Virus record (IMG/VR): IMGVR_UViG_3300030333_004878
Span: 1 to 31,413 of that record
Strand: one strand, 5' to 3'
Length of the DNA stretch: 31,413 nt
From: a virus
Part shown: piece after piece, positions 3,682 through 31,281 of the stretch
How positions within the stretch are numbered: the stretch's first letter is position 1
Layout of the letters: each line of letters starts with the position of its first letter
Program-made: the position numbers and the translations under genes
Notes under the pieces: generated by a model
What the model was told of the DNA's origin: nothing
Databases searched by the model: none
The model's input: the letters and a program-made list of their open reading frames with translations, nothing else

Positions 3682-3726
3682 TCTGGAGGCGAAATTCCAA
3701 AACAACTATAGGGAACATCTACGGTT

Positions 3727-5208
3727 TTATGCAATTAACCAGTCTTTTGCTCTATTTATAACGCTTTTCTTTAAAGCATGTGCCTCTACTACTTCGTGAT
3801 GTGGTTCATATGAGTTTTTATTTGCATAATATAGTCCATCTAATAAATCATCATGTTTTCCACGAGGAAACAAAGATAGCTCATCTTTCAAATCTTGCAT
3901 AGTATCTAATATATGTACTTTGCCCCTAGAAAATATAGGCTGTAGACTTTCAAGTCTTCTCGATTTACTGTTACGAGGATTTTCCTTAATATTTAAGCCA
4001 GGAATGAAAATATTCTCTTCTTCACTTCTTTTGATGACATATTCTCTTAACATTTCCTGATACCCAACACTTTCTATTCGAGTACGCTCAGAACGGTATT
4101 TTTTATAGTTTTTTACTATTGCCTCTGCTAAATTTAAAGGAGTAGCCCTTTCTCTGTAATAAGGCAAGGCATAGCGATTGCCATCTTTATCCACTGCTAT
4201 ATTAAATATTACAGAGTAATCAGCAGTTTGTTTCGTACTAGACGCAGGGTCTACTCCCGTAAATATATTAACTGGAACTTCTTTTACTTGTGGGAAAGTT
4301 AAATCTAATACAGCATTACCTTCCGCATCGTGCCTTATTTCTCCTTTGTAATATTGCAAGTCTTCTAGTTTAAACAACTGGTCTTCATCGCCTACAATCT
4401 CACACATGTATTCTCTATAAAATACAGAAAGTCTATTAATTGAATCCAGTTCGTCTTTTTTCTGTTTTAATTTTTTAATTGACCACCAATCCTCCCATAA
4501 TGCATAACCCTTATCAAAATCAGGCTTATAAGTAAGATTGAGCCAACCTTTCATTTCTTTCAGTGTTTCCACTAAACACCGCTGATGTTGGGGAGTGCCA
4601 ATAATGATGATTCTTCCCTTTCGAGGGTCTAGTGATGGAACTGCTGATTGTAGCAACCAACGCAGATTAGATTCCATTGCTTCGGCTGTTTTGGTGTTAT
4701 TTTCATCTTCTGGGTCGTCAACAATAATTAAGCTAGGGCGTTGGTTCCCGATTTTTATTCCTCTTAGCTGTTGACCCGTTCCCTTGCATATTATTACTGA
4801 ACCATCTTTTAATTCTATTTCAGACTTTGCCCAGCTTTTTGCTGAATGCTGACCCCAATAACCAAACATCTCTCTACATTGGTCACTATAATCAAGTGTA
4901 TCTTTTATCAAGCCCAGCAATTTTACTGCGTGGTCTTGCGTTCTAGATACCAGAACTATTAATTTTTTACCTTCTCCGAAAAATAAATGATGCATTGGCA
5001 AAACACCACCAACAATAGAGCTTTTTGCATGCCCACGTGGCGCAACGATATTTATTTGCTTATTGTCTGCATTCATAATATGCTTTGCTAAATCATAATG
5101 AAAATCAGGAGATTTAGCTGAAAACATATTGGGAATACATACTTTTCCAAAAAGCATCATATCCTCCTTAAGTTTTAGGAGTATTTGCTTTTTTTTAATA
5201 TCATCCAC
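3727..5208 (-). CDS. terL: Terminase large subunit (ATPase and nuclease)
   Basis: This is the motor that pumps DNA through the portal and cuts it. Visible motifs: Walker A-like APRGHAKSS (residues 56-64), Walker B SLIIVDDPED (159-168) with the catalytic acid after the DD pair, a coupling motif IIIGTPQ (201-207), and the start of the RNase H-like nuclease with GVDPASS (318-324, candidate metal-binding Asp320). A later HDDLLDGLYYA supplies further nuclease acids. A GTG at 5208 overlaps the stop of the gene upstream (TAGTG). An almost ideal AAGGAGG sits five bases before the ATG of codon 18 (5157), so a shorter start is possible, although codons 1-17 form a plausible helix. The motif order is complete, so the gene is probably functional. 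Confidence 0.93.
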   Translation of the reverse strand: MDDIKKKQILLKLKEDMMLFGKVCIPNMFSAKSPDFHYDLAKHIMNADNKQINIVAPRGHAKSSIVGGVLPMHHLFFGEGKKLIVLVSRTQDHAVKLLGLIKDTLDYSDQCREMFGYWGQHSAKSWAKSEIELKDGSVIICKGTGQQLRGIKIGNQRPSLIIVDDPEDENNTKTAEAMESNLRWLLQSAVPSLDPRKGRIIIIGTPQHQRCLVETLKEMKGWLNLTYKPDFDKGYALWEDWWSIKKLKQKKDELDSINRLSVFYREYMCEIVGDEDQLFKLEDLQYYKGEIRHDAEGNAVLDLTFPQVKEVPVNIFTGVDPASSTKQTADYSVIFNIAVDKDGNRYALPYYRERATPLNLAEAIVKNYKKYRSERTRIESVGYQEMLREYVIKRSEEENIFIPGLNIKENPRNSKSRRLESLQPIFSRGKVHILDTMQDLKDELSLFPRGKHDDLLDGLYYANKNSYEPHHEVVEAHALKKSVINRAKDWLIA

Positions 5209-6767: not shown

Positions 6768-6805
6768 CTACCCCCCAACGTTTGATGCATGGGGGTAGAC
6801 TTTTT
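6767..6805 (+). terminator. Terminator-like hairpin at the start of the rightward leader
   Basis: TCTACCCCC (6767-6775) pairs with GGGGGTAGA (6791-6799) over 9 bp with a 15-base loop, followed by C and five T (6801-6805). It is GC-rich in an AT-rich genome and has the form of an intrinsic terminator or attenuator placed before the first rightward gene. Its loop is itself complementary to 6861-6875. Confidence 0.55.
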
Positions 6806-6875
6806 CGTTGAGAATTATTACCGTTCATATTCTATTCTCAACGAAGATGTCTCCCCAGCCTGCATCAAAAGTTGG
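6775..6875 (+). promoter_or_regulatory. Long structured leader that competes with the terminator hairpin
   Basis: CCAAC and TTTGATGCA (6775-6789) pair with TGCATCAAA and GTTGG (6861-6875) around one mismatch. GGGG/AGAC (6792-6800) pairs with GTCTCCCC (6849-6856) with one bulged base. Inside this, TTCGTTGAGAAT (6804-6815) and ATTCTCAACGAA (6834-6845) form a perfect 12-bp stem with an 18-base loop. The rod uses both the 3' arm and the loop of the terminator-like hairpin, so the two folds exclude each other. Confidence 0.5.
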
Positions 6876-6938: not shown

Positions 6939-7262
6939 ATGACAATCGATTTTAAATCTAAAGGTAACAGTATTGGTAAGGTTAATTCTACAATATCTAA
7001 AGAACTGATTTCTAATAGTCTTCAGTTTTGGGCAGATACTTGTGATGCAATCTTTGTATCAACTTCTGATAAGGGTGACAATGTTCAGAAAGCTAAAGAA
7101 AAGCTTATGAAGATTGCTCAATCTCAGAAGTTTGAACAGACTGAACCAACTGAAGTTCCATCTAAATTTGATGGTAATCGTGTGTTTGTTATGAACCGAG
7201 TTCCATTGGAATCAGTTGATGATAACAGTGATTATGCGATGGAACTATTATTGGGTAACTGA
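6939..7262 (+). CDS. First rightward gene, unknown 107-residue protein
   Basis: The start is well defined by GGGAGG seven bases before ATG 6939. The protein is soluble and mixed alpha/beta, with one Cys, an early segment SLQFWADTCDAIFVSTSD and a C-terminal acidic part ending in AMELLLGN. It is preceded by an elaborate leader (6767-6908), which suggests strong, regulated early expression, and followed by an 10-bp hairpin. No family is recognised. As first gene on the injected early strand it could be a host-takeover or regulatory protein, but the sequence gives no direct evidence for this. Confidence 0.75.
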   Translation: MTIDFKSKGNSIGKVNSTISKELISNSLQFWADTCDAIFVSTSDKGDNVQKAKEKLMKIAQSQKFEQTEPTEVPSKFDGNRVFVMNRVPLESVDDNSDYAMELLLGN

Positions 7263-12404: not shown

Positions 12405-12600
12405 AATATATACAAATATTGCAAGTGATAGGTTTAAAAAACTTATTAAACTATTAAGTCAAATTGAAAATACTGATAGACAAAGAATGTCAGTTAGTAG
12501 TCAGAATTGGCTTGATGATATATGGAAGCTATTAGAGCAACCAACTTATGATGAGATGCAATCTCATATTAATAAAAAAAATGAAGAGGAAGAAGAATGA
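12385..12600 (+). CDS. Small charged helical protein (71 residues)
   Basis: GAGG nine bases before ATG 12385 favours this start over the open frame from 12340. It overlaps the previous gene by 20 bases and the DUF932 gene by 4 (ATGA). The product (MSNMNNKIYTNIASDRFKKL start) has a basic helix, a QNWLDDIWKLLEQPTYDEM segment and a poly-Glu end. Function unknown. Confidence 0.55.
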   Translation: MSNMNNKIYTNIASDRFKKLIKLLSQIENTDRQRMSVSSQNWLDDIWKLLEQPTYDEMQSHINKKNEEEEE

Positions 12601-13589
12601 GTCACATGATTGAAAGCATGTTCTATGTTGGGGATAAACCTTGGCATGGACTTGGAACTCCTTTAAAAGACCCTCCTACTATTGGAGAGGCTTTGGACTT
12701 AGCTGGTTTAAACTGGAAAGTCACAAAAAAACCTACATATTATCGCAGAAGTCTTGGTATAGAAGGCTTAAGTGAGACTGGTCACTTTGTAACTGTTAGA
12801 GATAACAATGAAGTGCTTGGTAATGTTGGTAGTAAATATGAAATACTACAAAACGTAGATGCTTTTGCACCATTTAATGTAATAAAAGATTATGGCTATA
12901 CGTTAGAAACTGCTGGTTCTATTGATGGCGGTAAGCGAGTCTGGATACTTGCTAAAACCCCTGATGACTATCTTGTTGGAGACGATAAGATTTTAGATTA
13001 TGTATTATTATATACTAGTCACGATGGAAGTTCTGGTAGTTGTTTTAGAGATGTCTTTATACGTGTTGTTTGCCAGAATACACTGTCAGCGTCACTTTCT
13101 GGTAATAAAACATTTGAATACAAACTAAGACATACTAGTAGTATTAAAAATAGAGTTGATGATTTGGTGAGCAAATTGCATACCCGTCAAGGAAATATAA
13201 GCCAAGCTGTTGATTCTATGAATTCTTTTCTTGATATACCAATGAATGATAAAGACCTTGATATTTATTTAGATGCGGTAATGCCATTTCTAGGTAATAG
13301 ACACAAGGAATCAAATAAAGAACTTGGAATATTAACAAGAAATAAAGCTTTGCCAGTTTATAATGCCATTAAAGAGGCTTTTTACAATGGTAAAGGAAAT
13401 AAAGGTGAGACTTTATGGGATGCTTATAACGCAGTTACTGAGTATCATGACCATATTAAATCTCATAAACAAGATTGGGTAAAAGCTACTCAATTTGGAG
13501 CATCTGCTAAATACAAGAAACAAGCTTTCTTTGTTGCTAGCCAGATAGTTAAAAAACATAAGAAAACTATGATTGGAGGAGTATCTTGA
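12597..13589 (+). CDS. DUF932 phage/plasmid-like protein
   Basis: A 330-residue protein beginning MSHMIESMFYVGDKPWHGLG, the usual start of the DUF932 (TIGR03299, phage/plasmid-like) family, followed by GEALDLAGLNWKVTKKPTYY and later FRDVFIRVVCQNTLSAS near residue 155. The length is normal for the family. These proteins are common in phages and plasmids, typically beside recombination or replication genes. Their biochemical role is not firmly established; a DNA-associated role is usually assumed. It overlaps the recombinase gene downstream by 4 bases (TTGA), so the two are co-translated. Confidence 0.85.
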   Translation: MSHMIESMFYVGDKPWHGLGTPLKDPPTIGEALDLAGLNWKVTKKPTYYRRSLGIEGLSETGHFVTVRDNNEVLGNVGSKYEILQNVDAFAPFNVIKDYGYTLETAGSIDGGKRVWILAKTPDDYLVGDDKILDYVLLYTSHDGSSGSCFRDVFIRVVCQNTLSASLSGNKTFEYKLRHTSSIKNRVDDLVSKLHTRQGNISQAVDSMNSFLDIPMNDKDLDIYLDAVMPFLGNRHKESNKELGILTRNKALPVYNAIKEAFYNGKGNKGETLWDAYNAVTEYHDHIKSHKQDWVKATQFGASAKYKKQAFFVASQIVKKHKKTMIGGVS

Positions 13590-14419
13590 TAGAAGAAATT
13601 CAAGTACCTCATCCTTATCAGTTAAGTAATGAAGATTATGAGGCTGAAAAGGAAACATTAAATACTGGTTATTCTGCTGATTATTTATCTTGGTCTGTTT
13701 GTTGGGATAAGCTAAAACAGCTTTATCCTACTGCTGTACATGAAAAAGTAGTATATAATTACGATGGAAAGCCAATCTTTGGGATTATGATGCCAGATGG
13801 CACTATGGAAGTTCATTGTAGAATAACATATGAAACGCCTGATGGTAATACATATACTCATAATGAATATTTAGCCGTTAGAGATAAGCGAAATCAAGCA
13901 TTGAGCAATCCTAATTCTGCACAAGTAGAAAATACTTATCGTAGAGCTTTGGCTAAAGGAGTTTCAACATTAACTGGCTATGGTATTAGCTTGTGGATGA
14001 ACGAAGACCTCCGTGAGATTATGAGAACAGAAACTCGTATGGATGGCAAACAGCCTCAAGAAGGTGAAATAACAGTTGACCAAAATGTAAAGCTTGATAA
14101 GCTTATGAGAGACCCCAAGACGACACCTGCTGATAAGGAACGTATTAAGGTCTTAAAGGAAAATGACTGGAAAGTAGATGGACATATTATAACTGAAATT
14201 ATAGCAGAGACTCTTATAAAAGATGTTGAAGCTGGAAGACAGAATAATATGAAAGCTACGAAAAAGCAAGTTAATGATTTAATAGAAAAGATTAAAAGCG
14301 ATGATAATGGGTTAACAGACGATATTCGTGGAAAAGCTATTAAATACTTAACTGATAAATCAAGAACAAAAGGCGAACTTACAGCCTTAACTGTCAAATT
14401 AAGTCTAAAGGAGGACTAA
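13586..14419 (+). CDS. DUF1071/Sak3-type single-strand annealing protein
   Basis: The start is TTG 13586 (overlapping the upstream TGA), decided by GGAGGAG five bases before it; the next in-frame ATG is deep in the domain. The 277 residues contain SADYLSWSVCWDKLKQLYPTA (about 29-49), a TYTHNEYLAVRDKRNQAL strand-helix, and ENTYRRALAKGVSTLTGYGISLWMNEDL (about 112-140): the signature order of the DUF1071 group of Rad52-like annealing proteins (Sak3 class). These coat single strands and anneal them during phage recombination. The C-terminal 100 residues are basic and helical (RTKGELTALTVKL end). It is followed directly by the SSB candidate. Confidence 0.82.
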   Translation: MIEEIQVPHPYQLSNEDYEAEKETLNTGYSADYLSWSVCWDKLKQLYPTAVHEKVVYNYDGKPIFGIMMPDGTMEVHCRITYETPDGNTYTHNEYLAVRDKRNQALSNPNSAQVENTYRRALAKGVSTLTGYGISLWMNEDLREIMRTETRMDGKQPQEGEITVDQNVKLDKLMRDPKTTPADKERIKVLKENDWKVDGHIITEIIAETLIKDVEAGRQNNMKATKKQVNDLIEKIKSDDNGLTDDIRGKAIKYLTDKSRTKGELTALTVKLSLKED

Positions 14420-15559: not shown

Positions 15560-15719
15560 AATACACGCACAAATGGGTAGTGACCTATATTGCGATGTTA
15601 TGGCTATATCTGTAGAAGATGTTCAATTTCAACTTGAAAATGGTATGATAGATGGTGGTTGTTTTACAGAAGATGAAAATTCAGGTTGGTGGGAATATGG
15701 TGCTATAGATGAACTCTGA
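15546..15719 (+). CDS. Small acidic protein (57 residues)
   Basis: GGAGG six bases before ATG 15546 decides this start; the longer open frame from 15486 has no ribosome site and lies inside the upstream gene. The product (MKKFRIHAQMGSDLYCDVMA start) looks like a two-strand/one-helix fold with ISVEDVQFQLENGMIDGG and ends WWEYGAIDEL. It resembles small beta-alpha-beta phage proteins without known function. It overlaps the primase-helicase gene by 11 bases. Confidence 0.6.
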   Translation: MKKFRIHAQMGSDLYCDVMAISVEDVQFQLENGMIDGGCFTEDENSGWWEYGAIDEL

Positions 15720-17571
15720 TATACGTATGGTAGAAGTGGCAACAGGACATGTGTCCAATAGACATCAAGCTGTTCTTCTTGAAAATTTAAATGATTATAT
15801 ATTTAAAAAAGAAGATAGAACGGAAACATACCATAGTTGGTATTTATTTGATGAGCAATTAGGTCAGCATATTAAAGCTACTGGGTCTATTCAAGGATTT
15901 AATGGAGTTTACTATATAAATAAAATTATTCTTGATTTTGACAAAAAGAATCTCACTGATGATGGATTGCTGGGTGCGGTTAGATTCCTTGTTAATACAG
16001 AAATGATAGATGATTTATCAATTGATGAAGACCATATTTTAATATGGTATAGTGGAACTGGTTTCCATATTGAAATTCCAGATTTATTTGGCTTTACCCC
16101 TTCCACAACCCTTCCTTCGACTGTTAAAGAAACTTTAACTTCTTTATTCCCAGAATGTGATTCTATTTATGATGGCGCTCGTATTATTCGTGCAAATTAT
16201 TCATATAATCAAAAACTAGGTAATTTTAAAGTTCCCTTTAATGTTGAAATGCTAAATAAATTTTCTATAGAAGAAATCAAAGAATCTTCTGCTAACTGCT
16301 CTAGTGATGAAATACGAGAAAAGGTTGATGTTATATATAAATTATGGTCTAATATAGAGCCATATTTAGGCGAATATATTAAACAACCATCTTATGATAA
16401 CAAAGCACCTACTACTGTTAGGACTGAATTTAAAATTGACCCTAATAGTGTAGTTACTTGTATGCAAACTGTTCTTGGGCAAACACCACCTGCTGGTGAA
16501 CGCAATGAAACAATGATGCGTATTGCATCTTGGATGAGACGAAATGGAATGCCAGAAAAGGTTGTTAGGAGTACGCTTTCTGATTGGTCGGGATTACCTG
16601 ATGAAGCAAAGAGATGTTCTCAAAGAGTTTTTGATGAAAAATATGAATATAGTTGTAGTGACTTTATTATGTCAAAATACTGTAAACCTAATTGTATTCA
16701 TTTTAAACACAAAGATTACAATTTAAATATATTAAATCCCTCTGATATGGAAGAAAAATATGAAGAGTTCATGATGAAGGACTTTACTAATATGGCTTTC
16801 AATTTTGCAGATTTATATGATATTGATTGTGACTTTTGGGTTTATCCAGGTGAATTAGTAATTGTTACTGGTAATACTGGCTTGGGCAAGTCTACTTGGG
16901 TTATGAATCTTGTTGCTAAATTAAATAATATGAGCTGTTTATTCTTATCTTTAGAGAACAGTTTTCATTTAACATTTAGGAGATTTGTTCAAATGACTGC
17001 CTCTTTAAGCAAAACTGATGTTATGTCTGCTTATCAAAAGCCCGCTCAAGGAGTTTTAAATTTAGAAGGTAAGAAAAAGCCAGAGTATTATAAGGCTTTT
17101 AAGCACATAAATATATTGTGCGAATCCCCTGAATTGAAAAAGCTTCAAGAAACTATTGCCAGAATGCAACCAAGAATAGTTGTTGTTGATACCACTGATA
17201 TGGTTTGGGTAAAAGGTGTTCAAGATGAGCTAAGCAAAATGAATGACATTATTAACGGATTAAAGTCGACAGCTCAAAGTCAAGAATGTATTATTATTGC
17301 TGTTCATCACATTAATAAACAAGCTATGCATGATGGTATCACAACAATTACTAGCTTAAAAGGTAGTACTAATGTTGTGCAAAAAGCAGATAAGGTATTA
17401 GCTATTAATGGTGAAAACAACGATAATTTACGTTCTTTACACTCTGAGAAAGCAAGAGATGATGGAAATATTAAGATAATGTTTGATTTTAATAAGAGAG
17501 ATATGACCTTTAATCAGAAAATTGATTCAGAAGGTTTTGTAGTACCAAAGAAAATAGAAAGCGCAGTATAA
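15709..17571 (+). CDS. Primase-helicase fusion: archaeo-eukaryotic primase plus RecA-fold ATPase
   Basis: A 620-residue replication protein. Residues 1-210 look like an archaeo-eukaryotic-type primase: metal motif LDFD (Asp76, Asp78), SGTGFH (115-120) as the nucleotide-binding SxH-type motif, and an Arg161 strand before a VPFNVE segment. Residues 250-335 include a Cys cluster (Cys303, 316, 325, 329; SDFIMSKYCKPNC) probably binding zinc. Residues 370-620 are a DnaB/RecA-like ATPase: Walker A GNTGLGKST (388-396), Walker B RIVVVDTTD (489-497), and IIIAVHHINKQA (528-539). It would make primers and unwind DNA in one chain. It starts within the end of the previous gene; ATG 15727 is an alternative start. 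No DNA polymerase is present in the window. Confidence 0.85.
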   Translation: MNSDIRMVEVATGHVSNRHQAVLLENLNDYIFKKEDRTETYHSWYLFDEQLGQHIKATGSIQGFNGVYYINKIILDFDKKNLTDDGLLGAVRFLVNTEMIDDLSIDEDHILIWYSGTGFHIEIPDLFGFTPSTTLPSTVKETLTSLFPECDSIYDGARIIRANYSYNQKLGNFKVPFNVEMLNKFSIEEIKESSANCSSDEIREKVDVIYKLWSNIEPYLGEYIKQPSYDNKAPTTVRTEFKIDPNSVVTCMQTVLGQTPPAGERNETMMRIASWMRRNGMPEKVVRSTLSDWSGLPDEAKRCSQRVFDEKYEYSCSDFIMSKYCKPNCIHFKHKDYNLNILNPSDMEEKYEEFMMKDFTNMAFNFADLYDIDCDFWVYPGELVIVTGNTGLGKSTWVMNLVAKLNNMSCLFLSLENSFHLTFRRFVQMTASLSKTDVMSAYQKPAQGVLNLEGKKKPEYYKAFKHINILCESPELKKLQETIARMQPRIVVVDTTDMVWVKGVQDELSKMNDIINGLKSTAQSQECIIIAVHHINKQAMHDGITTITSLKGSTNVVQKADKVLAINGENNDNLRSLHSEKARDDGNIKIMFDFNKRDMTFNQKIDSEGFVVPKKIESAV

Positions 17572-19907: not shown

Positions 19908-21194
19908 TTAGTCATCTTGTGGCATTAAAGCTGGTGCTATAAATGGCAATAAACCAAGCTGAAATTTCTTACGAAGGTCAGACTGCACAGCATTTGGCAA
20001 TGTAGGCATTTGCTTTTCAAGCCATCCTATAAATCCAGCTCCTAGTTCTGGTCTAGAAGGGTCTATAGCTCCTTGCATTGCTCTAAGGTCTTTTGTTGCT
20101 TGACCTGCTCTTCTTATAACATCAAGAGACCTTACTGATATATTATTTGGGTCTCCTAATGTAAATAACTCTTCATAGCCAAAAGGAGGGCCAACATGTT
20201 TATTCCCAGTTAAGTGCGCTAATCTTTCTTGTTTTAAACCCAGCCTTATTGCTGATTGGTCATCTGGTATAATATCCCATAATCCTTTTTTATAAAATTC
20301 ATTCATTTGTTTTTGCCAGCCTTCCCAGCTTTTCATGGGATTTGCCATAAAAGCATCTCTATCTTTAAATGGTTCCATAAGCTTGGCTCTATCTACTGCA
20401 CTTAATAATCCAGCTTTAGTTTTTGCTCCATAATAACTTCCTGAATCAATTGTTTTTTGAGCATTTCTCATTAATTCATAAAATGTATAGTTAGGGTCTG
20501 CTTTAATCCCTTCTAAAAATTTTAATCTATCTGTCATGCCTCTACTAGAGGTTCTAGCCATTTCTCCCCATATACTTCCTTCAAAGGCTCTGCCACCTCC
20601 AGGTGTACCGCCAACTACTACATAAGACCAAGGTTTATCTCGTTGCCATCTTGCTACATTATCGTAAAAATCTCCCATATTATTAATAGTAACACTATAA
20701 TCATCAAGATGAGATACGTCATCAAAATCTGCATCAGCCATTCGAGTATTGATAAACCCATAAGAAATATTTTCTCTTGCTTTACCCTTTGCTGTTTTTG
20801 GAAGGACTGTTCCAAAATTAGGAACATCTATCTTTTCCATATGTAATAATGGTAAATCTGAAAAACCTTTTTCTTTTAAAATAGCTTGAGCTTTTTCTGT
20901 AGGAATTTGCTCAATAGTTTTTGTTTTAGGATTATAAACATTTTGGACATTTGGATTAAAGCGAGATGTTATTAAGTTTGTTTCAGACTTACTTTTTGGA
21001 GCCATAGAAGAGAGTTTTTTAATTATCCCTTTGCCTCTTTTTACTAGGCTTAGTAAGCTTTTTCCAGCTATAAAAGGATTCAATGCTACATCTGGAGCAG
21101 TTCCTGTTATTGGTTCGGGTGCTTTATTAAACCTAAGACGTTTTTCAACGTCTTCTAAAGATTTTTCCCATTTATGTTGATTGTTGTGTGGCAT
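19908..21194 (-). CDS. Unknown virion-block protein (428 residues)
   Basis: It follows the giant gene, overlapping its last 23 bases, and so is probably co-translated with it. The protein is basic at the N-terminus (MPHNNQHKWEKSLEDVEKRL), has a hydrophobic patch around residues 36-50, a beta-rich middle (ISYGFINTRMADADFDDVSH; SYVVVGGTPGGGRAFEGSIWG) with a Gly-rich turn, and a helical C-terminal half ending GLLPFIAPALMPQDD. I recognise no domain. Position and length suggest a second injected or internal virion protein that partners the giant one. Confidence 0.7.
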   Translation of the reverse strand: MPHNNQHKWEKSLEDVEKRLRFNKAPEPITGTAPDVALNPFIAGKSLLSLVKRGKGIIKKLSSMAPKSKSETNLITSRFNPNVQNVYNPKTKTIEQIPTEKAQAILKEKGFSDLPLLHMEKIDVPNFGTVLPKTAKGKARENISYGFINTRMADADFDDVSHLDDYSVTINNMGDFYDNVARWQRDKPWSYVVVGGTPGGGRAFEGSIWGEMARTSSRGMTDRLKFLEGIKADPNYTFYELMRNAQKTIDSGSYYGAKTKAGLLSAVDRAKLMEPFKDRDAFMANPMKSWEGWQKQMNEFYKKGLWDIIPDDQSAIRLGLKQERLAHLTGNKHVGPPFGYEELFTLGDPNNISVRSLDVIRRAGQATKDLRAMQGAIDPSRPELGAGFIGWLEKQMPTLPNAVQSDLRKKFQLGLLPFIAPALMPQDD

Positions 21195-24100
21195 TTTCTT
21201 CTTCTTTCTTACGTTTTCTCATATTTGCACCTAGTTTATGTACAGGTATTCCAAACATAAATTCAGGAAACATTTCAGGAGCTTGCATCGTCATATATAA
21301 ACTTCTAGCTAACCTACCCCCAGGATACATTGTATGAATGTAATAGCTAGTAAACTTGTCCCAATCTCCATTTATTAATCCAGTTATTACTGGCAAATAA
21401 TATCTGTGTACTGGGGCAGTTACTGTTTGTAATGGTGCTAATGCTGGGTGAGGATAGCTACTAAAAAAAGCACGTTCTCTTTCTTCTGGGTCTCCAAATA
21501 GCCATTCTGCTGTTGATTGCATCCAAGACATAGGGGGCGGTAGAGTGCTGTCAAATATCGATGCAACAAAGATACTTGCTAAGGATGCCACCATTAAATC
21601 TTGTGCCATAAAACGTTTTAATCTATCTACTGACTGCTTATCTGTCATTCCGTATTTTTTAGCAGTTCTATAAATATGCCTTCTAAATCTAACTGAATTC
21701 CATGCGAATGGTTGGAATCTAGTTAGTACTTTACCCATAGCTGAACGAGCTATTGCTGGTCTATTTACATTGTGATATAAAAATTGAGTTGCTTCAACGC
21801 CTTTTAATGCCTGTCTAATTAAATAAGGATTATTAAATGCCATATCAGGTACTAACTGACTGTAGGTCTCTCTAGCATGAAGATAATGAGCCATAAAAGC
21901 ATCTGCTCTTAACTTAGCTTCAGATACTCTCATAAACCAACCACCAGATGCTACGATAGAATCCCAAACTCTATGTTTCTGAGCTATTTCTTTCCATTTA
22001 GTTTGAGTCATTTCTTTTGTAAATAATTTTTTTTGAACTTCATTTATAAATGGTCTCATTCTTGTAACAGATAAGCTTTTATCCATTGATGCTTCTGTTA
22101 CATAAAACGATTCCAAAGCCCCGACTTCACTAATCCATCTTCTTATTGTATTTTTATCTGTTATTGGAGTACCGTCTTTTAATTTAGCATCTTTAAATAC
22201 ATGTGTTAATAGCCATTTTGTATCATTGGCTTTAATAAAGTTTCTTAAACCTGCGTTAGATATTGTATTTTGAGAACCTCCAAATATATTACCAAGTGCT
22301 GTTTTAGGATGTGCGAGTAAAGATAAAAGAGACATTTTTGCTTCAAAATTACCAGTATTTACTAATATTTCATGCAATCTTCGCTCTCTTGCTTTTTGAG
22401 TTCTTGGCAATTCGCCATAAAAAGGAAGTTTTGGCTTCTCTATTGTCCCAAATCCTTTGAGTTTTCCCGTTAAACGACCTAACCCCTGTGATTTTATATC
22501 CAACCAATCGATAATAGCTTGGTCAGAAATAGCATATTTAATACCTTTTACCTTATTGTTTTTCTTAAACTGTGTATCACGAAGTAATCTTTCTTTGTAA
22601 TTCATTATTATTTCGCTTACATCTTTTCTGTCTTTATTCTCACTAATATATTTTTCCATTCGTTTCCGCTGGTAACTACTTAACCCAATATAATCCATTG
22701 GCAATATTGCGCTATGTCCCATTTGCTCTTTAATAAAAAGTCTCATTTCGGTAGCCCAAGGTTTTTTAGCATCTGCATCCATTGGATTTAATAATTCATA
22801 TTTTCTAATAGTATCTCTACCAGCCATAGATAAAATATTTTTAAAGAAAGAACTAGTCCATTGTTCAGCGTATGCTTTTAAAACATCAGGAGAATAACTA
22901 AAATAAGGCATTGGTATTTCTCCTCTGACTCCTCCTGAGCCTGGTCTACTTGCAAATCCTCCCTCAACCCAATCTTTTTTCTTGTCTCTATACTGAGCAT
23001 TTAAAAACTCAACTCCCCATTCACCACGAGAATTGTCTTTTAATGATTGCCCAGTCATTATTTCAAAGTCCTGTTCTTGCTTTGCCATAATTTCATCAAT
23101 AACTTGTTTTTTAGTCATTCTCCATTTTTCTGGAACCAATCCTAAAACTGCTTTTATTTGAAATTCGGTTGGTTTATATCTTTTTTTAATTTCAGAAGGG
23201 GCATTTCTAAGCTTTCCTGAGCTGGTTAATAGTGTAAAAAAATCTTCTAATTGCGACTGCAATCTTAATTGCTCATTTTTTATCCAAGGCATAAGCTTGT
23301 CTTTATTGTGCATCATTTGAGGAAAATACCCTTCTCTTACTTGACCAATGCCAATAAAGGCAGTCTCATTTGGTATATTTTCCTGTGTTTTTTTATCAAA
23401 CACTTCTGTTTTTCTATAATTGTTTCTGTATTCTGATGCAACTAGACTATTTGATTTAATTTTATTAAAAGTAATAATCTCTTCTAGGGCGATTTCATAC
23501 TGTACCCTATTTAATAATTCAACACTTAATGGGCTATTTCTATTTCCCATCATTTTAATAAATCCAGCTTCCCCTAATCCTGCTGATTTAATTACTTTAT
23601 TATGAAAATTTTCAATATCAAAGCGACCCCATTTGTCGTAACGTATTAAATCATGTATAATAAGACCATTTTTAGAGTACTCATGGTTATTATCAATTCT
23701 TTTCCAATCTATTTTTTCCCACACACCTTCTTTATTAAATAATCCAGCACCTACCCATGCTTCATACATTTCTTCTTTAAAAAAAGTATCTAATTGCTTT
23801 TGAATATCGCTTATTAATTCTTCTCCAGTTTTTCTTATCGTTTTTCCATCTCTTGTGATATTAAATATTTCTCCACTAAGGTTTTCTATATCTGCTTTAC
23901 TTTGAGCTAGTTCTTCTTGATAAAATTTTGCACGTTCTCCACTTATTTCTCTTTTTGCATTTCGTTGTTTTACAGCTATTTCCATTAATTTTTGGAATCT
24001 TTCTATCCCATTACTTAATGCCTCTACTTCTTGCTTAACGCCAATAGATTTAAATAAATGTTCTTGTAACTGATTTTTTACTGAATCTTCAAACCTTCTT

Positions 24101-27100
24101 ATAGCATTAGAAGACCTTTGTAAGTGAGACATAGCAGATAAAGGCACTTTAATACTAGCTTCTCCCATGCTACCATCAAGGTTCTTGACTGGAGCTTTTA
24201 TTGTATATATGTGATTCATATCATGGGTATTCATTCTTTCTCCCACTGCTTGAGGAAACTGCCAGTCATAAATCTTTTTATACCAAGCTCTGCCTTTAGG
24301 GTCTTTAATTGCTCCCTGCTCTATAAAATCTCTTAAATATCTATCAAAATTTCTTAAATCAGTAAAAGTAGCATTGCGAATGCTTGTAGTTCCTGTAAAG
24401 CCCTGCTCAATCTTCATTAATGTATATAAGTCATCTATTCTTGCAGTTGGCAATGATAAGGTTTTTAATGTCCTTTTAATACGTGGTATTACTTTTTGTT
24501 GAATATCTGCTGGTACTTTACTAGGGTCTACCTTTGGAGCTTCTACATCAAGCAATCTGTCTATTTTAAGCTGTTGTACTTCTGTAAATTCTGGTATGCT
24601 TTCTGGTTGATTTTTTTCAGCAACTACTTTGTCCCTAAAAAAGAACTCAGACCTAATTGTTTTTACTTCTTCTGGTGTTTTATTGTTTAAAACATCAAAT
24701 GTTTTAGCATACCCTTTTAAAAACTCGCTTTTAACGCCATCAGGTATTGCTTGCAATTCCCATGTAAACTTTGGAATTCCAGTATGTTCATAGTTCTTTG
24801 TTAAATTGTCTATATACTCCTGAATCATTTTCTTTTTAGAGTCTGTTTTAGCCTCAAGTAAATCCTGCTTTAAAGAACGCAACCTACTGCCCTTACTAAA
24901 AGTTTGTGGACTTAAACTGCCAAGTAAATGAGAAAAGAAATAATCGTGAGCAATACGAGGGTCTATTCCATATTCCTCTGACCTTTTTGTTATATCTTTC
25001 ATGTACTTTCTAATTAAAACATCAGCATTTCCTTGATTTTCATAAACATTAATATCTTTTTGTTTAAAACCTTTTCTAAATAAGGTTTTAATATGATGTG
25101 CGCCAACTGCTATATAATCCCTAAAAACAATCCAATCATTTTGAGATTTAACTAAAGGCCCATATTTTGTAAAAACGTCTAATTGCTCAGCAGGAATGCC
25201 CTGTATAGAATCAACTGCTTCTTGAATTTTCTTTCTCCACCTTGCTTGTATTTGTTTTTCTGTATCTGATAGCTTTTGCCCTTGAGTTAATTTCCAAGCA
25301 ACATTATTTATATCTTGATAAGGAACATTTTCTCCCTTTGTTTCTGTTCTTAATCCAGCATTACTCATTGCTGTTTTTAGCTTCTTACCAGTTTCTAACG
25401 CAGTAATTGCGCTGTAAATATCCCAAGTATCATTTAGTCTAAAATCCCTTTCTATGGTGGGATGGTGTTTACTAATTGGTTTTTCATGAAACCCTTTTAA
25501 ATCTGCTCTTTCATTAGTGTACATTTTATCAAAAGTATCTTGAACATCTTTAGGTAGCTTTTTTTGTAATCCCTCCCAAATAAAATCTGCATAATCTTGC
25601 TTCCCCAATCCACTATCTACAATCCTTTTTAGTTGTTTACCACTTGGAGTCCTATAGTCTGAATGTCTATTCATCATAATATTAAAAACTTTATCATACT
25701 GAATATTCCAATATTGTGGTTTAATTGTAAGATTTTTACGAACTGCAAATTCTCTTACTAAGGGGTCACGCCATATATTTGTAGCTAAAAGTTTTATTGA
25801 AGAGTCTAAGTTTCTAAAATTAAAATAGCCCAAAGGATTAATATTTATATTATTCTTACTCATATGGTTAGCAATAGTAAGAATTGAATTCATATAATTT
25901 GTTTCTATTTGAGTCGTCTGTAAGGTTTGTTGAACTTCTTGCGTTGAAAAAGGTCTATTTGAGTCATAATTAAACCCATAAAGCTTCTGATTCAAATCAT
26001 AGATTTGATTGTACTCAGGAGAATTCTTTAGCATCCAAAACTTAGGGCCATCTATGTTTTGACCTGCTTCTTCAGGTGTCCATTTCAAATTTTTAAAAGC
26101 ACTTTTCCAAAGTATTTCCTGCATTTGATTTGCATCTGCCATGCGATAATAGTTGGCACTATCTGCTGTTCTAGAAGATGCTTCTACACCAATTACATAA
26201 TACCCATTATCAGCATTTAATATAGTTTCACTAGTTTTACCAGTTAAGCGACCTAATAAATTTCCTTTTTTGCTTCTAACTTCTAAATTTAGATTGCCAC
26301 CTTTATTTGTAATTATATCAGCTAAAACTGTATTCATAAAAGATTTTGTATTTACAACTGTTCCCATCCCTTGCTTACCAGCATAAGAAGATTGCCCTGC
26401 TTTTCTTAAGGCGCCAGGAGACCACTGACTTAATGCATTTTTACTTACATAATCTGCTTCACTTATTCCGTATTTATTTTTCTTTGTACCTAATTCACTG
26501 CCAAATATTTTATCAAATCTCTTATCTTTATTATCAAATAATACTTGAACTCCTTTTTTAGTTCTTTCTAATAAGTTATCGTTTTTAACTAAATCACGCA
26601 TATACTCTTTTGGCAATCCTTGATAAAAGAAAACTTTATCGCCATCAACATCTGCACCATCAATATAAAAATGGTCTCTAGCACGCATATAAACGCCATA
26701 ATCAGAAACATTAACGTCATTACCTACAAACCCATCAAATAACAAAGCCCTTGTTCCACTTATAGCACTTGCAGGAACTCTCATTACTGCCAACATTAAT
26801 TGAGTCCTCATTCTAGCAATTGTTTCTTTAGGTTTTTTAGTATTTACGGCATCTAAAAACTCATCATATGCTTTTTCAAGTGTAGTTGTTTTTCCATCAA
26901 GCCATTTAATTTTTTTATCTTTATGGCTATACCCTAATTTCACATGACCAACTTTTTGAGAAATTATTTTTGCTCCATCCCAAAAATCATATTTTGCATT
27001 CGCCTTTAAACCGCCCGTAATCATCTCCATTATTGGGTCGACACCTGCTACCCAACCACTGCCACTAAACTCCCATTTAGGTTGTGTAAAGCGCTGTAAA

Positions 27101-30100
27101 CGGTATGTATGTATAGCACGCTGATAAAGTTTGCTATTTACAACAGATGCAATTGGATTATAGTCTGTTGCTTTATACCAAGTTTCAAAACTATTGGCAT
27201 ATTCTTTTAATTCTTGCAATCTTTCATGTGCTTCAGGCATTTCTTCTTCAAGTTGCATCTTTCTAATTTTTTTAAATACTTCTAAGTTTAATTCTTTATG
27301 TAAGGGATGAGTCACATCATTAATAATTTCAATAAAATCTTTGTCACTTATTTTAGAAATATCAAACCCTTTTGGATTCGCAAGTTTAGGATTATCCTTT
27401 AAGGCTTTTAAATAAGCGTTATTTTCAGGCGTTCCTCTTAATGGAAACTCTAGAACATCGTTCATAAAGTTATCAAATCCTTTTTCGCTCATTGTAATCT
27501 TATCAAAAAAGGTATGCATCTGTTTTTTAATTGTTGTTGCTTGAGCAGAATGACTGTCCCCATAAACGCCATAATTAATACGAAAGTCTTTAACTGGCAT
27601 TTTAAATGATGGCCCTTGATTATCCATCACTTTAAATGTTTCCTTTCCAGTAGCTTGACCTTTGTATATCTTTGCTCCTTTAGGAATATGTTTTGACGCA
27701 CTTGTTACAACAATCATTGAATTTGGATTTTTTAAAAAATTGTCATACCCCTTTCTAGAAGGATGAACCCCACCTTTTAATAAAAATAACTGACCATTTA
27801 CTTCAACAGCAACAGACGGTTTCATATGAGATGTGCGTTCTTCTAAATGGTTGCTTTTTAAAAATTGTTTATAAAGCTCTGAATGCATTACTACCCAACC
27901 ATCTATTTTACTTTCCCAGGCTTTTTCTACTATATTGCCATTAGCATCTATAACATTATATGTTTCTGGCTTTTTACCCCTAACTAATCTATTTGTAGCT
28001 TTTTTTAATCCATCAATTAACCCCTTAGAATCATCTATTAAGTAAATTTCTATTTCATCAGTATTTTTTGTTATCTTAGAAAAATCTTTTGGATTTACTT
28101 CAAAAAAGGCTTTTGATGCAAACAGGGCTTCTCTTTTTACCCTAGCTACAGCATCTTTAAAATTATAATTTTTTTCGTATAAGTAATTTGATTTAAATGA
28201 TTCTGCATATACCCTATCTAAAAATGCAATATCAGAATTGTCTATAACAGCACCTGTTTCAATTTCAGATGCGATTCCTTCTTTTTTTACTTTTTTATCA
28301 AAACTAAATGCTTTTTCAAATAACTTTTGAGATAATTTCCCCAACGCCTTGCTGGAATGACCAGCAATATTTATTACACCTGGGTTTTTACTTACAAAAT
28401 CTCTTATAGCTTTAATATTTTTTTGTGAAAGACTTGCATCGTTTAAAACAAGCAAAGGCTTGTGGCCATCATAAACGCCTTCTTTAGAATTTCCTTTTTG
28501 CCACTTACCTGTTTGAGCATATCCAATTGTTTTGTCTGTACCAGCAGATGATTTTGTTCGTATTGCAATAGTTGCATCAGCATCATCTACATTTTTCATT
28601 GTTCTTTTTGGATAAATAGAAGGGTCAGCTTCACCTTCAACAACTTTATATCTATCAGCCAAGGCTTTTCTATTAGATTCGCCACTAACTTCTTTAGTTA
28701 TATTCTTAGGGGGAGCAGTACCACCAGTTTCAATACCTAGTTTTTCTCCAGCCCTAAGCCCAGCCATATCAACACCAGATTGCATTCCAGAAATAATCTT
28801 TTTTACAGGAATTTCACCTGTATCTTCTATAGTTTCTGATTTTTTTGAACGATTAATTCCCATTGTTTGATACCAAACATCTCTATCTGTTCTGTAATAA
28901 GCTTCTAGCATTTTTTTATCAACACCAGCTGTGTTCTTAATTATTTCTCCAAATATTTGAGATAATTTTGTTTTTGATATATCAGGATGGAATGGGTATA
29001 TACGTTCTACTCCATTGTCTTTTTTAGGTATTTTTAAATAGAACTTACCACGTTTAGTTAAATCCCCTTTTTGATTCCACAAGTGTTTTTGAATTTGTAT
29101 CCAATCAAGTGGTTTGATTTCTGATTCCATAACACCTGTATCAAAATTTAATTTCTTATCATACGGCTTAAATACTTTCCAGTTTCCATAATTATCTTTT
29201 GATGAAAGTTCGCCAAATTCAAATACTCGAATTTCTTCAGACCAAAGAGGTTCATTTTTTTTGTTTTTTCTATTCTGCATAATTACTTCATCAGCAGGCT
29301 TTGGTTGTCTAGATGCGATAATTTTATTTAATATGTTTTTATACCAAACATTTTCAACTTGATTTTTTTCAACATTAAATGTTACGATAGGTCGTATTTC
29401 TTCTTGTTTTATTCTATTAAATAATTGACCAAGACCACGTTCCATTTCTTTATCTATAACTAATCCTTTGTATTTCTTAGTCAGGGTATCCATATATTCT
29501 TTTAAGACCTTGGTTACATTATCAGATGCTTTTATTTCTTTTTTATTAAATAAGGTAATAGCATCTGATATTACATCTTCTGGCTTATATGGTAATTCAA
29601 CAAGTTTGTCTTGAAGTTTATCTACAAAGCGCTTAATCATTGGCTCTGAGCTAACTTCTGGCTGTCCTTGACTTAAAGCATTTTCAGCTTTAATAATATC
29701 GCTCAGCGTTGTTTTTACTTCTTCAAATGGTTTGCTTTCAAAATGCTCATTTATTACTCTATCTAACGAAGTAATATCTCCATCTTTAATTACTTCTTTT
29801 AATTCTTTATCTGTCAATCTGTTTGCAATTTTTACTATTTCTGGCGTGGCTTTATCAGGGTTAACAATACCTTCATATACTTTTCCAACTATTCTATCCC
29901 TCATTTGCATTTCAGCTACTTTAGATGGAGTTAAATCAGCAACTTCCCCCTTAGCTTCTGCTTTTTCATATTTATCTAAATCTTCTACTTTTTTATTCAG
30001 CTCGCTTGCTTTTCGTTTGTAACTAAGCTTTAAATCTGATTCCATAGCGTCTCTTAATACAGCACTTGCCATAGAAAGAGTATTATCATACATATCGCCC

Positions 30101-31281
30101 AAATGGTGAAAATGAGCATCTTTAACAATTTGTTGAGCTTCAGGTGCTAACTTTTGAAACTCTGGGTTTTTTAACATTCCTCTTACATCTTCAAAGGTAT
30201 ATTTAGGAGTGCCATCTTCATTTTTAGTAGAATTAAATTTATTAAAATAATCATTAGCTTCTTTAGCAACAGCTCCTTGCGCTTGAAACCCAAAAAAGCC
30301 TCCTAGTAAATATTCATATATTTGTGTGGCAGTAGGAGCGCCTTGCATTGTAGCCATTCCCCCTTGAAATGCACTACCAGCAACCATACTGGCTAATCTT
30401 TCTTTATTTCCTTTAGCAAATTCCTTACTGTACTCCCACAATCCTTTCATTCCAGCACCTGCAACTTTTACATTAGGGTGCTGTATCATCTTACCCATTG
30501 TGACAAAGTTTCCTAATCCCCCAAAAGCACCACCAGCTATTCCTCCAAAAATAAGATTGTTCATCTCATTATTTTCGCCATCAAATAATCCACTTAATAC
30601 ACTAGCAACTCCTAAATGACTAGATTGAAAAGCAATATCAAGTGCCTTACCTGCGCCTGTACTTTTATTAATATGTTTTGCTACTTCAAATCCATGTTCG
30701 GCAAGGTTTCTTTTTACCCAGTCTTCTAAAGCATCTGCGCCTAACAATGGAACTGATTTAATGGGGACTTCTACTTTTCCAGCAATACTTACTTTAGAGC
30801 CTTTTCTTAAAACTTCTCCACCGCCCTTTAATACCTCACCAGTGTACCCTAAAGCTCGCCTAGCTTGATTCCATCCTCTTTTTGCAACACCAGCACTTCC
30901 AGCTCTTGTAGCAACTTGCGTAGCAGATAAACCAAGCCTAGCAAATCCAGAGCCACCTAATGTTAATACACTACCAGCTAATGGCAATGCAAACCCTAAT
31001 AAATGCCCCATGCTATGGGCAATAGCTTGAGCTTCGTCTTCTGGTTCTTCAGACCATCCACCCATTGAAAATGGCCCAAGTACACCCTCTGTAAATCCAG
31101 ATGTAAATTGAGAAAGCATGCCACTTGATTTTTGGGCACGCTTAGCACCTTCGATAGAATTATCGAAAGGAATGCCATATATATCAGCGTATTCTTTGAT
31201 TTCAGCTACATCGCTGTCATCATATAGATGAGGATTTAGGTTATAGCCAGTAATCCTGCTTTGTATTTCAAAGGGACTCAC
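21172..31281 (-). CDS. Giant virion protein with single-chain two-barrel RNA polymerase core and SLOG domain
   Basis: 3,369 residues, GTG start at 31281 six bases after the upstream stop. Residues 91-120 and about 245-265 are glycine-rich hydrophobic segments, as in injected virion proteins. Residues about 827-990 contain GMQSGVDMAGLRAGEKLGI and a GGTAPP turn, like YpsA/SLOG nucleotide-binding domains. Residues about 1120-1260 have DG (1127-1128), Lys1154 and Lys1169 (MKPSV, LLKGG), matching the beta-type barrel; R-V-P at 1501-1503 leads to GADVDGD (1542-1548), with Asp1544, 1546 and 1548 as the metal triad of the beta'-type barrel. This order is that of YonO and crAss-like gp14 polymerases. 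Residues about 2985-3010 (LAHPKTALGNIFGGSQNT) and a membrane helix near 3230 resemble C-terminal regions of large polyvalent phage proteins. The role is inferred: injection and early transcription. Confidence 0.8.
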   Translation of the reverse strand: MSPFEIQSRITGYNLNPHLYDDSDVAEIKEYADIYGIPFDNSIEGAKRAQKSSGMLSQFTSGFTEGVLGPFSMGGWSEEPEDEAQAIAHSMGHLLGFALPLAGSVLTLGGSGFARLGLSATQVATRAGSAGVAKRGWNQARRALGYTGEVLKGGGEVLRKGSKVSIAGKVEVPIKSVPLLGADALEDWVKRNLAEHGFEVAKHINKSTGAGKALDIAFQSSHLGVASVLSGLFDGENNEMNNLIFGGIAGGAFGGLGNFVTMGKMIQHPNVKVAGAGMKGLWEYSKEFAKGNKERLASMVAGSAFQGGMATMQGAPTATQIYEYLLGGFFGFQAQGAVAKEANDYFNKFNSTKNEDGTPKYTFEDVRGMLKNPEFQKLAPEAQQIVKDAHFHHLGDMYDNTLSMASAVLRDAMESDLKLSYKRKASELNKKVEDLDKYEKAEAKGEVADLTPSKVAEMQMRDRIVGKVYEGIVNPDKATPEIVKIANRLTDKELKEVIKDGDITSLDRVINEHFESKPFEEVKTTLSDIIKAENALSQGQPEVSSEPMIKRFVDKLQDKLVELPYKPEDVISDAITLFNKKEIKASDNVTKVLKEYMDTLTKKYKGLVIDKEMERGLGQLFNRIKQEEIRPIVTFNVEKNQVENVWYKNILNKIIASRQPKPADEVIMQNRKNKKNEPLWSEEIRVFEFGELSSKDNYGNWKVFKPYDKKLNFDTGVMESEIKPLDWIQIQKHLWNQKGDLTKRGKFYLKIPKKDNGVERIYPFHPDISKTKLSQIFGEIIKNTAGVDKKMLEAYYRTDRDVWYQTMGINRSKKSETIEDTGEIPVKKIISGMQSGVDMAGLRAGEKLGIETGGTAPPKNITKEVSGESNRKALADRYKVVEGEADPSIYPKRTMKNVDDADATIAIRTKSSAGTDKTIGYAQTGKWQKGNSKEGVYDGHKPLLVLNDASLSQKNIKAIRDFVSKNPGVINIAGHSSKALGKLSQKLFEKAFSFDKKVKKEGIASEIETGAVIDNSDIAFLDRVYAESFKSNYLYEKNYNFKDAVARVKREALFASKAFFEVNPKDFSKITKNTDEIEIYLIDDSKGLIDGLKKATNRLVRGKKPETYNVIDANGNIVEKAWESKIDGWVVMHSELYKQFLKSNHLEERTSHMKPSVAVEVNGQLFLLKGGVHPSRKGYDNFLKNPNSMIVVTSASKHIPKGAKIYKGQATGKETFKVMDNQGPSFKMPVKDFRINYGVYGDSHSAQATTIKKQMHTFFDKITMSEKGFDNFMNDVLEFPLRGTPENNAYLKALKDNPKLANPKGFDISKISDKDFIEIINDVTHPLHKELNLEVFKKIRKMQLEEEMPEAHERLQELKEYANSFETWYKATDYNPIASVVNSKLYQRAIHTYRLQRFTQPKWEFSGSGWVAGVDPIMEMITGGLKANAKYDFWDGAKIISQKVGHVKLGYSHKDKKIKWLDGKTTTLEKAYDEFLDAVNTKKPKETIARMRTQLMLAVMRVPASAISGTRALLFDGFVGNDVNVSDYGVYMRARDHFYIDGADVDGDKVFFYQGLPKEYMRDLVKNDNLLERTKKGVQVLFDNKDKRFDKIFGSELGTKKNKYGISEADYVSKNALSQWSPGALRKAGQSSYAGKQGMGTVVNTKSFMNTVLADIITNKGGNLNLEVRSKKGNLLGRLTGKTSETILNADNGYYVIGVEASSRTADSANYYRMADANQMQEILWKSAFKNLKWTPEEAGQNIDGPKFWMLKNSPEYNQIYDLNQKLYGFNYDSNRPFSTQEVQQTLQTTQIETNYMNSILTIANHMSKNNININPLGYFNFRNLDSSIKLLATNIWRDPLVREFAVRKNLTIKPQYWNIQYDKVFNIMMNRHSDYRTPSGKQLKRIVDSGLGKQDYADFIWEGLQKKLPKDVQDTFDKMYTNERADLKGFHEKPISKHHPTIERDFRLNDTWDIYSAITALETGKKLKTAMSNAGLRTETKGENVPYQDINNVAWKLTQGQKLSDTEKQIQARWRKKIQEAVDSIQGIPAEQLDVFTKYGPLVKSQNDWIVFRDYIAVGAHHIKTLFRKGFKQKDINVYENQGNADVLIRKYMKDITKRSEEYGIDPRIAHDYFFSHLLGSLSPQTFSKGSRLRSLKQDLLEAKTDSKKKMIQEYIDNLTKNYEHTGIPKFTWELQAIPDGVKSEFLKGYAKTFDVLNNKTPEEVKTIRSEFFFRDKVVAEKNQPESIPEFTEVQQLKIDRLLDVEAPKVDPSKVPADIQQKVIPRIKRTLKTLSLPTARIDDLYTLMKIEQGFTGTTSIRNATFTDLRNFDRYLRDFIEQGAIKDPKGRAWYKKIYDWQFPQAVGERMNTHDMNHIYTIKAPVKNLDGSMGEASIKVPLSAMSHLQRSSNAIRRFEDSVKNQLQEHLFKSIGVKQEVEALSNGIERFQKLMEIAVKQRNAKREISGERAKFYQEELAQSKADIENLSGEIFNITRDGKTIRKTGEELISDIQKQLDTFFKEEMYEAWVGAGLFNKEGVWEKIDWKRIDNNHEYSKNGLIIHDLIRYDKWGRFDIENFHNKVIKSAGLGEAGFIKMMGNRNSPLSVELLNRVQYEIALEEIITFNKIKSNSLVASEYRNNYRKTEVFDKKTQENIPNETAFIGIGQVREGYFPQMMHNKDKLMPWIKNEQLRLQSQLEDFFTLLTSSGKLRNAPSEIKKRYKPTEFQIKAVLGLVPEKWRMTKKQVIDEIMAKQEQDFEIMTGQSLKDNSRGEWGVEFLNAQYRDKKKDWVEGGFASRPGSGGVRGEIPMPYFSYSPDVLKAYAEQWTSSFFKNILSMAGRDTIRKYELLNPMDADAKKPWATEMRLFIKEQMGHSAILPMDYIGLSSYQRKRMEKYISENKDRKDVSEIIMNYKERLLRDTQFKKNNKVKGIKYAISDQAIIDWLDIKSQGLGRLTGKLKGFGTIEKPKLPFYGELPRTQKARERRLHEILVNTGNFEAKMSLLSLLAHPKTALGNIFGGSQNTISNAGLRNFIKANDTKWLLTHVFKDAKLKDGTPITDKNTIRRWISEVGALESFYVTEASMDKSLSVTRMRPFINEVQKKLFTKEMTQTKWKEIAQKHRVWDSIVASGGWFMRVSEAKLRADAFMAHYLHARETYSQLVPDMAFNNPYLIRQALKGVEATQFLYHNVNRPAIARSAMGKVLTRFQPFAWNSVRFRRHIYRTAKKYGMTDKQSVDRLKRFMAQDLMVASLASIFVASIFDSTLPPPMSWMQSTAEWLFGDPEERERAFFSSYPHPALAPLQTVTAPVHRYYLPVITGLINGDWDKFTSYYIHTMYPGGRLARSLYMTMQAPEMFPEFMFGIPVHKLGANMRKRKKEEENATQQST

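Follow-up and report, generated by a model that had tools for sequence, protein, structure and literature searches.

The question raised by the virus record IMGVR_UViG_3300030333_004878 of IMG/VR is what kind of enzyme, if any, is carried in the middle of its giant protein. The window analyzed here is the whole stretch of bases 1 to 31,413 of this linear record, which has 40,809 bases. All positions follow the numbering of the window. Very probably, a single-chain, two-barrel, DNA-dependent RNA polymerase makes up the middle third of the giant protein, and it is most likely packaged and ejected for the first phage genes. The fold class and the candidate active-site residues are well supported. 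This kind of enzyme is already known; the family is new. The giant open reading frame (ORF) and the elements of its polymerase core are the following.

21172 to 31281, minus strand: giant ORF, 3,369 amino acids (aa), with a GTG start at 31281 and a stop at 21172

25672 to 28242, minus strand: two-barrel RNA polymerase core, residues 1014-1870, defined by an AlphaFold2 model and Foldseek matches

27898 to 27903, minus strand: D1127-G1128, the DG pair of the first double-psi beta-barrel (DPBB-B, beta-type), in 25 of 25 sequences

27820 to 27822, minus strand: K1154, first candidate catalytic lysine, in 25 of 25 sequences, on a predicted strand (model 140-148, residues 1153-1161)

27775 to 27777, minus strand: K1169, second candidate catalytic lysine, in a KGG motif, in 25 of 25 sequences, between two predicted strands

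26773 to 26781, minus strand: R1501-V-P of the second barrel (DPBB-A, beta'-type), in 26 of 26 sequences

26638 to 26658, minus strand: G1542-A-D-V-D-G-D1548, candidate metal-binding loop, with D1544, D1546, and D1548 in 26 of 26 sequences

26305 to 26418, minus strand: candidate bridge helix of 38 residues, 1622-1659, with conserved G1635-K1636 and K1646, taken from the model

The initial annotation, made from this one sequence, proposed a polymerase core with both barrels on one chain, of the YonO and crAss kind and not T7-like. The residues that it named (D1127 and G1128, K1154, K1169, R1501, V1502, and P1503, and GADVDGD at 1542-1548) are all in place. DxDxD occurs once in the giant protein. 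The chance expectation from the protein's composition is 0.68 for DxDxD and 0.05 for DxDGD. The length and acidity of the protein make DxDxD unremarkable by itself, a hint at most, and conservation and fold must carry the claim.

Conservation was assessed in relatives from IMG/VR. Direct searches find the close ones. A degenerate DNA pattern for DGADxDGDK yields a much more diverse set, in which most members have 33-39% identity and L027 has 24%. With a profile-derived search, the set grows to about 25 contigs. Full-length homologues have 2,996-3,682 aa. The GTG start recurs in homologue L001. The core alignment, A8, is composed of 26 sequences with identity down to 19% and has 808 scored columns, 39 of which are fully identical. 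D1127, G1128, K1154, K1169, R1501, V1502, P1503, D1541, G1542, D1544, D1546, G1547, and D1548 are invariant wherever they are covered. Among 16 full-length giants, block 1501-1560, from RVP to DVDGD, is the most highly conserved 60-residue block of the protein (mean identity 0.75). Part of the homologue set was recruited by a pattern or profile containing the DxDGD loop, so recruitment accounts for some of the loop's conservation. The DNA pattern did not include R-V-P, DG, or either lysine, whose conservation is independent of that pattern. Invariance across homologues that the initial annotation had not seen confirms the catalytic candidates predicted from a single sequence.

In tblastn searches of cultured phages, neither the polymerase region nor the C-terminal part has a detectable relative, and matches of the N-terminal part are essentially confined to a SLOG insert. 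The family has no relative among the bacterial and archaeal genomes scanned.

The predicted fold is the second line of evidence. A first AlphaFold2 model, from 10 close sequences, reached a predicted local distance difference test score (pLDDT) of 48 and was discarded. The model of residues 1014-1870 from 26 diverse sequences has a pLDDT of 81 and a predicted template modeling score (pTM) of 0.80. This second model is good because the pattern scan supplied divergent relatives. In a Foldseek search of the PDB, QDE-1 leads (six chains with E values between 4e-5 and 4e-4 and a probability of 1.00), followed by maize and Arabidopsis RDR2. The best eight PDB matches, all QDE-1 or RDR2, have a probability of 1.00 and alignments of up to 845-851 columns. 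The other entries among the 50 PDB matches listed are bacterial, archaeal, plastid, phage, and eukaryotic chains of two-barrel RNA polymerases. Against predicted viral proteins, unnamed proteins are the best matches (E 7e-29, template modeling (TM) score 0.69). Further matches are crAss-like proteins (cr50_1, E 2.5e-8) and the phi14:2 RNA polymerase (E 4e-4), and two matches carry the name RNA-dependent RNA polymerase.

Along the chain, the DG pair and lysines come ahead of DxDGD, as they should in a two-barrel enzyme made of a single chain. Structure prediction of the core had been suggested in the initial annotation, and the resulting model matches the two-barrel polymerases QDE-1 and RDR2 and crAss-like proteins. 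Conservation and fold matches together bear out the single-chain, two-barrel assignment, of the YonO, crAss, and QDE-1 kind. Helix 1622-1659 is a candidate bridge helix by its position in the model and its resemblance to the phi14:2 stretch GGKSGVGITAN. No trigger loop was recognized after the second barrel. The polymerase module probably extends past residue 1870 to about residue 1990.

Four BFVD models (A0A516LW39, A0A516LAI4, A0A516L9L2, and A0A516M3R5) are unnamed viral proteins that match the core far better than solved structures do, with E values down to 7e-29. By their predicted structures, they are probably additional members of the family.

Several observations weigh against the assignment. 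The QDE-1 matches have TM-scores of 0.24-0.38 and a root-mean-square deviation of 10-16 Å, so only parts superpose well. Searches of Pfam, PHROGs, and PDB sequences with the core or its profiles return no polymerase family. Comparison with ten crAss polymerases by hhalign gives E values of 0.16-0.19, with a score no better than that of the reversed template, and comparison with P23-45 gp96 gives nothing significant. Presence in the virion rests on gene order, on the fusion to a giant protein, and on analogy. In the top, non-significant crAss alignment, R-V-P falls onto R-I-P and GADVDGD onto GSDFDID, in the expected register. Polymerases related in this way, with no sequence link, have likewise been described in the case of P23-45 and of crAss families compared with one another (PMC10770324; PMC7886860). 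The family is tied to known polymerases through fold and motif alone. The multisubunit beta' family (PF04997) is absent, in a search whose controls worked. T7-like polymerase (PF00940) was not found in the record, but the control of that search was silent too.

Single-chain two-barrel polymerases are known from several systems. QDE-1 and RDR2, the nearest solved folds, differ in being eukaryotic RNA-interference enzymes, with 8-11% identity and a TM-score of at most 0.38. YonO of SPbeta is likewise a single-chain phage polymerase homologous to multisubunit RNA polymerases (PMC5467207); by its description, it is set apart by a size of about 100 kDa and is unfused to a giant virion protein. The closer parallels are phi14:2 gp66 (gp77 in KC821624) and its crAss-like counterparts, where a single-chain two-barrel polymerase lies in a large protein, as it does here, with a virion location presumed in this phage. 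They also share R-[IV]-P about 40 residues ahead of G-x-D-x-D-x-D. The crAss-like loop is DFDID or DFDVD, whereas DVDGD is found here, and crAss-like genomes are about 90-105 kb. None of the tested structural proteins of this phage matches phi14:2. In gp96 of Thermus phage P23-45, a DxDGD two-barrel polymerase is part of a giant virion protein (PMC10770324). P23-45 is long-tailed, and its polymerase occupies the N-terminal part of the tape measure protein, which has 5,002 aa, whereas here the polymerase is central and encoded in a podovirus-type late block. The enzyme had also been described as larger than that of crAss-like phages. This does not hold, as the polymerase genes of crAss002, crAssphage, and Fpv2 are 12.2-13.2 kb, and P23-45 gp96 is longer than the giant protein.

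The virion RNA polymerase (vRNAP) of phage N4 is a T7-like polymerase, in contrast to the two-barrel fold found here. The dimensions are alike. N4 gp50 and the Schitoviridae vRNAPs have about 3,400-3,500 aa and a three-part layout, which here is made up of an N-part (1-1013), the polymerase (about 1014-1990), and a C-part (about 2040-3369). In N4 gp50, the polymerase spans residues 1007-2101 of 3,500 (PMC12633501). The N4 gene order gp53-gp52-gp51-gp50 is close to the order in relatives of this phage. By hhalign, the N- and C-terminal parts have no significant similarity to N4 gp50. The earlier suggestion that the enzyme replaces the N4 polymerase in an N4 scaffold is therefore reduced to an analogy. 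The flanking parts of the giant protein are the following.

28798 to 31281, minus strand: residues 1-828, the N-terminal part, in which Gly/Ala-rich hydrophobic stretches at 61-120 and 301-360 are conserved; likely an ejection or membrane part

21175 to 25164, minus strand: C-terminal part, residues 2040-3369, with a conservation peak at 2941-3360 and a hydrophobic segment at 3224-3249; a presumed role in passage and anchoring

The giant ORF is part of a minus-strand late block, which includes the following genes.

1474 to 5208, minus strand: P22-like portal and large terminase TerL (portal phrog_156, E = 1e-62, with P22-like matches)

19908 to 21194, minus strand: 428-aa gene overlapping the end of the giant ORF, with homologues after the giant gene in L005, L013, L002, L050, and L052

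L004 2665 to 5895 (record 33664 to 36894): 1,076-aa tail-module protein (starts ...IRDFSGGINRG...), with no PHROG match

Portal and TerL are thus present, as the initial annotation implied. TerL has only about 27% identity to any cultured phage. The block also holds genes for several proteins of 145-260 aa and a probable major capsid gene, assigned by position. Homologues of the 1,076-aa protein are found at the equivalent place in relatives. Where relatives have enough flanking sequence, a tail/stabilization-like gene of ~1,000 aa is followed by several genes of ~90-500 aa and then by the giant. Medium-sized genes likewise lead into the giant in L046, the most divergent relative. The record is 41 kb; relatives reach about 51 kb, plus one contig of 89 kb.

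In the proposed mechanism, the first barrel would supply the DG pair together with K1154 and K1169. The second barrel would supply the Mg2+-binding residues D1544, D1546, and D1548, followed by a bridge-like helix. The barrels would face each other and form one active site, of the type that cellular and RNA-interference polymerases have. The phage would be short-tailed, and its capsid would hold the giant protein until ejection along with the DNA; the N- and C-terminal parts of the protein would aid passage and membrane anchoring. Once injected, the polymerase would transcribe the first phage genes, as has been described for N4 gp50, phi14:2 gp66, and P23-45 gp96. We infer catalysis, packaging, ejection, and early transcription. 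The parallel to N4 in gene order and layout is what suggests an ejection protein with a polymerase for the first genes.

Other explanations of the locus differ in where the enzyme would act or in whether it is an enzyme at all. A two-barrel polymerase could be made in the infected cell and stay out of the virion, like YonO or P23-45 gp64, and adjoin the structural genes by happenstance. YonO does transcribe late genes from within SPbeta (PMC5467207), and virion placement is here a prediction from gene order. This alternative is nonetheless unlikely. Full-length homologues fuse the polymerase to about 2,400 further residues, the gene is directly behind tail-type genes, and the large fused polymerases of N4, crAss-like phages, and P23-45 are virion proteins. 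A polymerase of the RNA-interference (RDR) type, copying RNA, is considerably less probable, even with QDE-1 and RDR2 as the top PDB matches and two viral matches named RNA-dependent RNA polymerase. Several of the matched QDE-1 entries contain DNA templates, and the context is that of a double-stranded DNA phage. Moreover, a structural relationship to eukaryotic RNA-dependent polymerases does not keep the crAss-like polymerase from transcribing early phage genes (PMC7886860).

Loss of activity is marginally less probable again. In that case, a degenerate barrel pair would be kept for its fold in an ejection or tape protein. Sequence divergence is extreme, and polymerase activity is here a prediction, but few residues of the protein are as strongly constrained as the candidate catalytic ones, the opposite of decay. 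Least probable of all, and very improbable in itself, is a chance match to a Ca2+-binding loop or another DxDxD protein. The chance expectation for DxDxD given above would allow it. Against it, conservation extends beyond the loop to R-V-P, DG, and both lysines. The two-barrel polymerases returned by the structure search largely refute it.

The polymerase reading, if correct, adds a new and deeply divergent family of single-chain two-barrel polymerases, seen here in uncultivated phages only and unrecognized by the profile libraries tried. It places this enzyme class in a podovirus-type genome of small size (about 41-51 kb), in a giant protein sized like the N4 vRNAP. A general arrangement, with the polymerase inside a large ejection protein, would thus recur with a different enzyme. 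Uncultivated short-tailed phages may have built a three-part ejection protein of N4 size separately from N4, with a QDE-1-like two-barrel polymerase; this proposal is tentative and is given slightly less than even weight. If it is true, unrelated polymerase folds came to serve the same machine twice, either because that machine arose twice or because the polymerase was exchanged within one ejection scaffold.

Ahead of the polymerase core, the giant protein has one further recognizable domain.

28360 to 28797, minus strand: cpYpsA-type SLOG domain, residues 829-974 (Pfam PF12694, E = 6e-12)

This domain resembles SLOG proteins of Maribacter phages. The initial annotation had counted it as part of the fused system. 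Its presence stands; its membership in the core system does not, as the alignment of 16 giants has 88-90% gaps at 841-1020. The alignment points to a lineage-specific insertion ahead of the polymerase core. In L046 (3475-13350; same contig as L027), residues 375-522, near the N-terminus, form a DprA-like stretch of the SLOG superfamily at a different position. SLOG-type insertions recur, outside the core machine. L046 also has a phrog_9995 domain, common to giant Pseudomonas phages, that is inserted after the DxDGD region at residues 1718-1824.

Direct repeats that could serve as promoters are limited in the window to short, chance-like families. A strong hairpin at 6785-6865 lies in non-coding sequence where the minus-strand block meets the plus-strand block that starts at 6939. 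As DNA, it folds at -19.8 kcal/mol; shuffled sequences average -5.6 (z -7.1). Its conservation in L090, the closest relative, is 78%, with a compensatory change in the stem, and it matches no Rfam family. This hairpin is possibly a control element of the early region or a terminator. At 12597-14419, a DUF932 protein adjoins a Sak-type single-strand annealing protein; a primase/DnaB-type helicase comes next, at 15709-17571.

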